64,000 nucleotides of DNA from Cytophagaceae bacterium (GTDB taxonomy: Bacteria > Bacteroidota > Bacteroidia > Cytophagales > Cytophagaceae). Under the pieces are notes generated by a model. The model was not told the origin of the DNA and searched no databases. It was given only the letters and a program-made list of their open reading frames with translations. Location of the stretch: the NCBI GenBank assembly GCA_025455005.1, contig JALONH010000008.1:1-64000 (forward strand). The letters are read 5' to 3'. Within the stretch, counting starts at the first letter, position 1. Each line of letters starts with the position of its first letter. The position numbers and the translations under genes are program-made. Positions 1 through 49,788 of this stretch are shown here, piece after piece.

Positions 1-96
1 AAATGTGAATTATAAACAAGAAGAGCCGTGTGAGGTGAGAGTCTCAAGCACGGTTCCGTGAGAACCTAAGGGTGAAATTCCCTTGGGTGACTCGAT
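1..96 (+). mobile_element. 3' end of a group II intron (domains V and VI)
   Basis: Positions 23-56 fold as a group II intron domain V: an AGC triad at 24-26 in a lower stem pairing 23-31 with 48-56, a two-nucleotide bulge (A46-A47) and a capped upper stem. Positions 57-96 form domain VI, with AAGGG pairing with CCCTT and an unpaired A at 90, seven nucleotides from the end, as the likely branch point. The intron would end at CTCGAT (91-96), matching the usual AY 3' end. The rest, including any reverse transcriptase gene, lies left of the window. The domain V/VI pattern resembles bacterial class C introns, which favour terminators and integron attC sites; that class assignment is inferred. Confidence 0.82.
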
Positions 97-129
97 TAGT
101 GGTCATTGTGATACGATAATGAAATAATT
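97..129 (+). other. Cassette core site (attC R'-like half) abutting the intron
   Basis: The intron end is followed directly by TAGTGGTCATTG, so the restored junction would read GT/TAGTGG. The same TTAGTGG start opens the third cassette (1833), and TTAGCAG opens the second (868). This is the GTTRRRY-type core where integron recombination happens. It fits the known habit of class IIC-attC introns to insert into this core (GT/TRRRY); the 5' exon needed to prove it is outside the window. Confidence 0.5.
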
Positions 130-771
130 ATGAAATTTGTTACTAAGCATTGGTTTGACATAGGAGCAGGACTTACAGTTCTTGTTCTAATTTATTTATA
201 TCAGGCAAAAGACCTCACAAACTATGACTATGTGATGTGGCTAAGTTTAGTTTCTCTGTTCTTACATCAACTTGAAGAGTATAAGTTGGTCGGGACATTT
301 CCTGGAATGTTGAATAGAGTAATGTTTAAAAGTGATATTCCAGACAGGTACCCTTTAAATGCATTGACCTCAGTTTATGTAAATGTTTTGGTTGGTTGGC
401 TTTCTTATTTTTTTGCTGCCATATTCGGACAACAAGCAATTTGGTTAGGAATTGCTACAATGTTAGTTTCACTGGGTAATACTGTTGCGCATTCGACTGT
501 CTTTAATATCAAAGGAAAAACTTACTACAACGCAGGAATGGCGACAAGTTGGTTACTCTTTGCTCCTTGCATTTATTTTTTCTTTATAACTATTCACACA
601 GAACATTTAGTTACTTTGACTGACTATATTATTGGTGTTCCAGTTGGCATTTTTCTAAATGTAATAGGTATTATAAAACTCATTGACTGGTTTGCCGATA
701 AAGACACAAAATATGTTTTTGAACAAAAAAATTTATTACCAATTGACAGACAAAAGAACTACAACCGCTAA
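130..771 (+). CDS. HXXEE domain-containing integral membrane protein
   Basis: A 213-residue protein with five or so hydrophobic segments (about 10-24, 36-46, 80-120, 140-157, 165-185). It carries the H46-Q-L-E49-E50 motif that names the HXXEE family, a membrane family of unknown biochemical function common in mobile and accessory DNA. The ATG at 130 is preferred because an ATG eleven bases upstream runs straight into a stop. It is the sole gene of the first cassette; its stop codon overlaps the first attC-like site. No promoter box is evident between the intron end and the start, so expression probably depends on upstream DNA. Base composition lacks the frequent CCGG tetranucleotides seen in the core genes of this window, consistent with acquisition. 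Confidence 0.75.
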   Translation: MKFVTKHWFDIGAGLTVLVLIYLYQAKDLTNYDYVMWLSLVSLFLHQLEEYKLVGTFPGMLNRVMFKSDIPDRYPLNALTSVYVNVLVGWLSYFFAAIFGQQAIWLGIATMLVSLGNTVAHSTVFNIKGKTYYNAGMATSWLLFAPCIYFFFITIHTEHLVTLTDYIIGVPVGIFLNVIGIIKLIDWFADKDTKYVFEQKNLLPIDRQKNYNR

Positions 772-873
772 CACGAGTTTTTATAAGACAATTTCTACTA
801 TATTTGAATTGTATCCTTCATATCAAGTGAGAGCTACAACACAAGTAAGAATAAAAGCTGCAAACCGTTAGCA
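766..873 (+). other. attC-like recombination site 1
   Basis: GCTAAC (767-772) and GTTAGC (867-872) are inverted complements bounding about 105 bp. Inside them AGTTTTTAT (near 776-784) pairs imperfectly with ATAAAAGCT (851-859), giving the two-step stem (R and L boxes) typical of attC sites. It lies exactly between the stop of the HXXEE gene and the next gene. The exact core recombination point would be G867/T868. Position and geometry argue for an integron cassette boundary; the match to the canonical RYYYAAC box is imperfect (CGCTAAC). Confidence 0.6.
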
Positions 874-909
874 GTAATAGTAGGACAACTTATCCGAAAG
901 TGTTAAACA

Positions 910-1730: not shown

Positions 1731-1838
1731 AGCTAACACCGTTTTTTTGTCAAGTGAGATGACGTGAAACCGTGGAGCTTTATGCTTCTATTCATGTGCT
1801 GTGCTGATTGACAGCATTGTACTTCGAAACCGTTAGTG
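1731..1838 (+). other. attC-like recombination site 2
   Basis: AGCTAAC (1731-1737) and GTTAGTG (1832-1838) form the outer inverted boxes, 108 bp in all, the same size as site 1. Internal pairing is weaker: CAAGT near 1750 against ACTTC near 1821. The right-hand core, CGTTAGTGGTGATCAT, closely matches the sequence beside the group II intron (TTAGTGGTCAT), showing that these are copies of one site family rather than chance palindromes. Confidence 0.57.
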
Positions 1839-4418: not shown

Positions 4419-4441
4419 AAGTCTATAGTTTTACTTTAAAA

Positions 4442-4830
4442 CAATACAAGCGGATAAGCCGGGTTCTGTCGATTGTGTTGCCACAATGTCTTATCATTTA
4501 TCTAGTCTTGCTGTCACCAACAAGCTCAAACGACCTACCCATTTCGGCCGACAAGCAAGCTTGTCAAGGTACGAGCAGCACCTGTGTCCGAAACCTATTT
4601 GGTCTTTCAACCCGTAAGGTTTACCCCAATACAACATCGCTGCTGTACGAGTGAGCTCTTACCTCACTTTTTCACCCTTACCCCGACAAGTCGTGGCGGT
4701 ATTGCTTTCTGTGGCACTTTCTGTTCTTTCGATATACTCGAAAGACCTACCCGTTAGGTAGTACGGCGCTCTTTGTTGCCCGGACTTTCCTCTTCAATGC
4801 AAGATTGAAGCGATAAGATCGCTTGTATTG
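4442..4830 (-). ncRNA. rnpB: RNase P RNA (M1), bacterial type A
   Basis: On the minus strand the 5' part contains GAGGAAAGTCCGGGC and the 3' part contains ACAGAACCCGGCTTATC, the universal P4/CR regions of RNase P RNA. The ends are set by a perfect P1 helix: CAATACAAGCG at 4830-4820 pairs with CGCTTGTATTG at 4452-4442. Length of about 389 nt fits type A. It is the catalytic RNA that matures the 5' end of tRNAs. It occupies the gap between the sigma-54 regulator and the Smr gene. Confidence 0.95.
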
Positions 4831-24457: not shown

Positions 24458-24468
24458 TACTCCCATTG

Positions 24469-24539
24469 GGTTCTGTGGCCGAGAGGCTAGGCAGAGGTCT
24501 GCAAAACCTTGTACACCAGTTCGAATCTGGTCGGAACCT
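24469..24539 (+). tRNA. tRNA-Cys (GCA)
   Basis: A 71-nt cloverleaf: acceptor GGTTCTG (24469-24475) with CGGAACC (24532-24538), anticodon stem GAGGT/ACCTT around a seven-base loop holding GCA at 24501-24503, T-arm ACCAG-TTCGAAT-CTGGT and discriminator U, the identity element for cysteinyl-tRNA synthetase. CCA is not encoded, so the tail must be added by the CCA-adding enzyme encoded at 45194. Confidence 0.96.
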
Positions 24540-24544
24540 CCCTC

Positions 24545-49679: not shown

Positions 49680-49777
49680 AAAAAAGGCAAACCGAGTATC
49701 GCACCGCTACAACCACTTATCCTTGCTGCCTTCCGGTCCTGGGGAGGTTCGAGGGAGCTGGTCGTACCGGCCTGCCG
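49680..49777 (-). ncRNA. ffs: Signal recognition particle RNA (4.5S type)
   Basis: On the minus strand, GGCAGGCCGGTACGACC at the 5' end pairs with the complementary 3' end (GGTGCGATACTCGGTTTGCC), and the apical part contains CAGGACCGGAAGGCAGCAAGG, the Ffh-binding domain with the GGAA tetraloop. About 95 nt long, it is the small bacterial form. It ends in a T tract and begins about five bases after a TACCTTTG box. It guides ribosomes making membrane proteins to the translocon. Confidence 0.95.
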
Positions 49778-49780
49778 ATA

Positions 49781-49788
49781 CAAAGGTA
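49781..49788 (-). promoter_or_regulatory. -7 promoter box of SRP RNA
   Basis: TACCTTTG on the minus strand, four bases before the RNA's 5' helix; it fixes the RNA start near 49777. Confidence 0.65.

Follow-up and report, generated by a model that had tools for sequence, protein, structure and literature searches.

The 64-kb window, the whole stretch of DNA that was analyzed, begins inside a mobile group II intron. With a probability of roughly 0.85, this intron is a member of an RmInt1-like (IIB-type) lineage whose homing sites are the attC sites of integrons. The assignment to a class rests on relatives, because the intron's own body and 5' exon are unassembled.

What the window holds is the 3' end. 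RF00029 matches positions 21-96 of the forward strand (58.2 bits against a gathering threshold of 40, E = 7.8e-9), which bears out the predicted group II intron end with its domains V and VI. The intron occupies 1-96 (+) and is cut by the contig edge; domain V lies at about 23-56 and domain VI at about 58-94. The catalytic triad of domain V, as read from the sequence at 24-26 (+), is AGC. In group IIC introns the triad is CGC, according to part of the text of PMC7923331. The splice point falls at 96/97 (...GTGACTCGAT/TAGTGG...), and homologous 3' exons mark the T at 97 (+) as the first base of the 3' exon (IBS3) and the start of the cassette behind the intron. A junction reading GT/TAGTGG had been proposed. 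The splice point before the T stands, but the GT is absent from the window, where the preceding bases are intron; to judge from the relatives, it probably belongs to the missing 5' exon. The closest lineage member with a reverse transcriptase (RT) is the copy in genome G004 (locus L085), which shares 73 of 76 bases with this intron end. Base 1 of the window is also base 1 of contig C41, so there is no sequence to the left within this assembly.

The cassette array downstream runs in the direction of the intron. Its first gene (130-771, +) encodes an HXXEE-motif protein (PF13787) and has an attC without an intron at 763-876 (+). Covariance model R1 (see below) matches this site with E = 0.0046 in a search of 104 kb, the R'' box (766-772) pairs with the R' box (867-873) at six of seven positions, the L boxes pair at nine of nine, and the fold agrees. 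The second gene (910-1707, +; cation efflux family, PF01545) is followed by a weak, probable attC at 1731-1838 (+). Its R'' (1731-1737) and R' (1832-1838) boxes pair in the fold, and the model covers only part of it (1773-1830, E = 4.8). No attC was found with the covariance model after the third gene (1878-2423, +; DUF2867, PF11066), so perhaps the array ends there. The original prediction had named GTTRRRY cores at 868 and 1833. They read GTTAGCA (867-873) and GTTAGTG (1832-1838), so that neither fits the consensus strictly, but the first is an attC by structure. The broader claim of an integron-like cassette setting in Bacteroidota, with the intron oriented with the cassettes, holds, and attC sites lie between genes both here and on contig C44 of the same genome. 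The TIGR02249 cut-off for an integron integrase is passed neither in this genome (0/1) nor in relatives (0/8), with lesser tyrosine-recombinase matches in each. As assembled, then, the genome carries a cluster of attC sites without intI. Among homologues of cassette 1 (12 of 390 genomes matched, five inspected) no intron-free form of the window's own junction was found. Ordinary RNA genes elsewhere in the window are RNase P (4439-4829, -), small SRP RNA (49681-49784, -) and tRNA-Cys (24468-24542, +).

Contig C44 holds two further intron ends, at 21-96 (at its edge) and at 1455-1530. The latter closes an ORF-less copy (935-1530) that starts at about 935 and lies between an attC and the next cassette. 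This copy is degraded. Its first base is T rather than G, a recognizable EBS1 has been lost, and its domain I matches no family. The attC model matches C44 at 2674-2808 (E = 7.9e-6), 2007-2106 (0.034) and 769-942 (0.22), the last match ending just within the ORF-less intron. The same search of window and C44 gave four more partial attC matches with E of at least 0.13, of which three lie in the window away from any attC; the four look like chance, except for the one at 1773-1830, which is inside the weak attC. In the whole assembly (2.94 Mb, 45 contigs) no RVT_1 domain was found, and a search for the lineage's 5' end returned one match with one mismatch, which a reversed control equaled and which is not an intron.

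The relatives are more informative about class. Within the family, 8 of 19 genomes, counting the source genome, have a match to the ORF-less copy on C44; some of these matches belong to a sister branch. Full copies occur three times in genome G001 (on one contig) and once in G004; their RTs, of 413 and 420 aa, pass TIGR04416. All three RTs tested consist of RVT_1 and GIIM only, one GIIM falling just below the cut-off, and lack an endonuclease domain. From a scan of named genomes at least 78 distinct loci were kept, of at least 93 that encode a relative, and part of these again represent the sister branch. By record title nearly all are Bacteroidota, the exceptions being L121, on a 3.6-kb Gammaproteobacteria MAG contig, and L126, from a Balneolaceae MAG. 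Domain I belongs to RF01999 in all eight lineage loci tested (L049-L052, L087, L111, L121, and L132). RF01999 is also the domain I family of the RmInt1-type intron L077 of Sinorhizobium, whereas the IIC-attC intron L076 of plasmid P378-IMP has RF02001 and RF01998.

The RTs were placed in a quick tree of 42 sequences, with SH-aLRT support only and the short L150 left out. The lineage forms one set of 17 rows (98), nested in a 36-row set (99) that holds L077 and excludes L076 and L078. We take L077 to be RmInt1, and its RT branch is presumably 'class D'. Among the plasmid RT matches listed, those of Rhizobium etli and S. meliloti show 44 and 40% identity over nearly the whole RT, and that of P378-IMP 35% over 64%. 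Class IIC-attC, the original prediction and our starting hypothesis, was dropped on the domain I families and the RT tree. The RT classification that had been suggested as a check, run here on the relatives, groups them with L077 and apart from L076. An RmInt1-like (IIB-type) intron is indicated by the RF01999 domain I, RT branch and absence of an endonuclease in the relatives, a comparison made with individual introns as references.

Where does this lineage insert? Intron ends were located without use of the exons, the 5' end by the intron start motif and the 3' end by domain V and the tail motif, and before counting we manually excluded 17 loci that belong to the sister branch or show weak similarity. 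CGT precedes the intron at 46 of 49 distinct 5' ends, and among 62 distinct 3' exons T comes first in 60 and TA or TG in 57; these counts are not all independent, because paralogous copies of one genome are included. The 46 comprise 45 in the main count plus L125, whose exon is too short for that count and was read later. The three exceptions are L103, at a non-attC site, and L157 and L160, where the junction is 1-2 bases off, beside CG or CGT. At the 5' ends of the sister branch CGT precedes none of 14. In other words, the insertion point of the lineage is in the top strand of attC, where the R' box is split after its GT and before the following T. A junction lying away from the core was sought in the relatives and not found.

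The position is matched by the intron's own guide sequence. EBS1 reads ACGTTT in 39 of 48 introns and so complements the attC word AAACGT. It pairs fully with IBS1, the last six exon bases, in 31 of the 48 (mean 5.4 of 6); when exons were dealt to introns with another EBS1, the mean fell to 4.3 of 6. Recognizable EBS1 was absent in six rows. In L099 both sides have changed (EBS1 ACGTAG with exon CTACGT) and the pairing is still 6/6. The G004 copy, the window's closest relative, has EBS1 ACGGTT with exon AGCCGT. The window's own attC sites read AACCGTT, with which an EBS1 of ACGGTT would pair fully.

Comparison with intron-free homologous junctions, another check that had been suggested, was carried out on the relatives. 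Intron-free paralogues of interrupted attC sites, with up to 96% identity over 120 bases, mostly read an uncut CGT^T. A base other than T follows, however, at two sites in L043/L085 and at one in L105, and L102 has CTGT^T. In G001, a repeated cassette with 95.6-98.8% identity to the one behind an intron follows several different attC ends, all CGT save one AGT. Since the intron-free copies show CGT^T with neither duplication nor loss, the target is restored exactly. The integrase crosses over at the G/TT cassette joint, and the intron sits one base past it. A separate observation concerns G001:C1 at about 4.784-4.844 Mb (L041, L042, and L186), where a cassette starting TGGGGGCTATAG is repeated many times behind differing attC ends.

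Model R1 was built from ten intron-free sites and has 24 pairs, 19 of them with compensatory changes. In 46 intron loci (E up to 0.01) it finds 111 matches, 110 of which are on the intron strand. At 34 of 47 distinct 5' junctions (L091 and L125 having been excluded beforehand) the match ends 3-10 bases inside the intron, although for near kin the model is not blind, because the ten training sites were found by similarity to interrupted ones; the matches in the window and on C44 are blind. Of the IIC-attC intron at an attC core that had been claimed, the core is borne out and the class is not supported. The 13 junctions without a match include longer-type attC sites (L090, L093, and L094), L085 with its long hairpin, and L087 and L111, which sit at CGT^T and resemble no attC. 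Complete (9/9) L-box pairing is found at 20 of 48 junctions; among 2000 controls of each kind, 79 (CGT) and 106 (swapped) show it. Two other measures were given up. The folding energy of 150-base 5' exons separated weakly (median z -1.86 vs. -0.27, with z below -3 in 11 of 46 exons and 2 of 48 random segments); arm pairing and the covariance model took its place. A simple attC finder was too noisy on long stretches.

Could this be a group IIC-attC intron after all? The target is of the same kind and is split at the same GT/T (TTGT/T in the available part of PMC7923331), and among solved structures the closest relative of the RT is the GsI-IIC RT (4.6e-46), with no chain named RmInt1 among the best eight listed. 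Against this stand the domain I of the relatives (RF01999, not RF02001/RF01998 as in a IIC-attC intron), their place in the RT tree, the AGC triad of the window itself, the six-base EBS1 pairing, and the relatives' use of the opposite strand and the opposite end of attC. A group IIC-attC intron is therefore very improbable. A harder question is what is recognized. What if the intron reads the word AAACGTT (or AACCGTT) alone, and attC is hit because attC sites of Bacteroidota carry this word? The EBS1-IBS1 pairing spans this word, and L087 and L111 have no recognizable attC. However, 34 of 47 junctions coincide with the end of a match to the attC model, and 110 of the 111 matches have the same strand as the intron; both figures would seem to exceed what a seven-base word is expected to give. 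We regard recognition of the word alone as a real possibility, albeit not the favored one.

It might also be that the window copy is a truncated, dead remnant carried along with the cassettes. The lack of an RT and of a lineage 5' end in its own assembly would fit, as would the degraded state of the C44 copy. The contig ends tell against it. The distance from contig start to splice point is exactly 96 bases in both C41 and C44, while the two intron ends share only 62 of 76 bases, and in three contigs of G014 the break comes 124-127 bases ahead of the splice point. This is the pattern left by assembly breaks at multi-copy repeats. Because the breaks look like those at multi-copy introns, the intron body is more likely unassembled than absent, and we consider a dead remnant unlikely.

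How does an RmInt1-like intron that homes to attC compare with known systems? With group IIC-attC introns (S.ma.I2 type; L076) it has in common the attC target and the GT/T split. These introns insert at R'' of the bottom strand and run antisense to the cassette genes, with consensus TTGT/T (part of PMC7923331), whereas the present lineage uses the top strand at R', in sense, and differs in RNA and RT class. The first ORF behind the intron (n = 58) is on the intron strand in 39 cases, on the opposite strand in 8 and absent or tied in 11; beside L076, the adjoining blaIMP-4 runs opposite to the intron. RF01999, the RT branch and an RT of about 420 aa without endonuclease are shared with the RmInt1-like introns of Sinorhizobium (L077). 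The home of RmInt1 is an insertion sequence, whereas the present lineage, with EBS1 ACGTTT, targets the R' box of attC at many different cassettes. In RmInt1 IBS1 extends from -7 to -1 (PMC3123198, in part), and the EBS1-IBS1 pairing of the lineage is similar in place and length. Two cases described by way of PMC7923331, again in part, are alike in sense orientation: UHB.I2 (class CL1), at or beside attC, and, from Enterobacter cloacae, a IIC intron in the top strand of attC. Each is a single case from another class, and the same partial text describes no lineage fixed on the GT/T of R'. A literature search of titles and abstract openings returned no attC-R' RmInt1-like lineage; most subscription papers and the founding IIC-attC papers were outside its scope, and absence from print is not established.

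A plausible mechanism can be sketched. The intron RNA with its RT/maturase would reverse-splice into the exposed attC top strand, guided by the EBS1-IBS1 pairing and the T at IBS3, perhaps with help from the attC hairpin directly upstream. Since it lacks an endonuclease, the intron would prime cDNA synthesis from the replication fork, as other En-minus group II introns do (PMC4424553, in part). From its sense position the intron would be transcribed with the cassettes, and splicing would rejoin the transcript. In the DNA, the integrase should no longer be able to use that joint, its R' box being split.

It is probable, if less so than the identity of the intron, that group II introns acquired attC homing twice, the second time in a Bacteroidota-wide RmInt1-like lineage. 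The EBS1 of this lineage would read the R' half-site of attC itself, on the strand left unrecombined by the integrase, and insertion would fall one base from the joint. Sense splicing from the cassette transcript, together with the split DNA joint, may then freeze or fuse cassettes without silencing them. A 2015 review, in the part available, lists attC insertion among the specificities of class C, with homing the rule in the other lineages (PMC4424553). An attC-specialized IIB-type lineage would mean that unlike introns colonized attC independently and from opposite strands. It would also be a natural system for testing whether introns read a hairpin or a word, and it connects the cassette arrays of Bacteroidota, which have received little study, with group II introns. 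Although spread widely, the lineage is not common. In the order, RTs of this lineage and its neighbors reach E = 1e-60 in 21 of 390 genomes, and in a sample of the phylum 26 of 395 genomes reach 1e-100. Of 29 phylum-sample loci read, 16 have a 5' motif, and in one (L220) CGT is followed by the start typical of the lineage.

Several related loci have features of their own. In three RmInt1-like introns of the sister branch, L073 (G001:C1:4794482-4795753), L056 (G327), and L064 (G371), an attC core GTT lies 7-9 bases into the 3' exon (TGCTAAACGTT, CGCCAAACCGTT, and ACTAAACGTT), and the 5' exon of L073 is also an attC arm. Perhaps this sister sub-lineage uses a second attC position. In Sediminibacterium sp. 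C3 (L184, G390:C4:2896001-2916000), two tyrosine recombinases on the same strand lie ahead of an array stretch with two introns. They fall below the integron-integrase cut-off, with matches that skip the middle of the TIGR02249 model, and could be unusual integrases of such arrays. Three identical RmInt1-like introns of G492 (L203, L225, and L227) were rejected as cassette insertions; they lie directly behind another group II domain V/VI, and since they adjoin another intron's end, intron ends are targets too. Finally, in L118 (1-300) the 3' exon of a lineage intron is the start of another such intron (90% over 160 bases, L150), in a tandem or nested arrangement.
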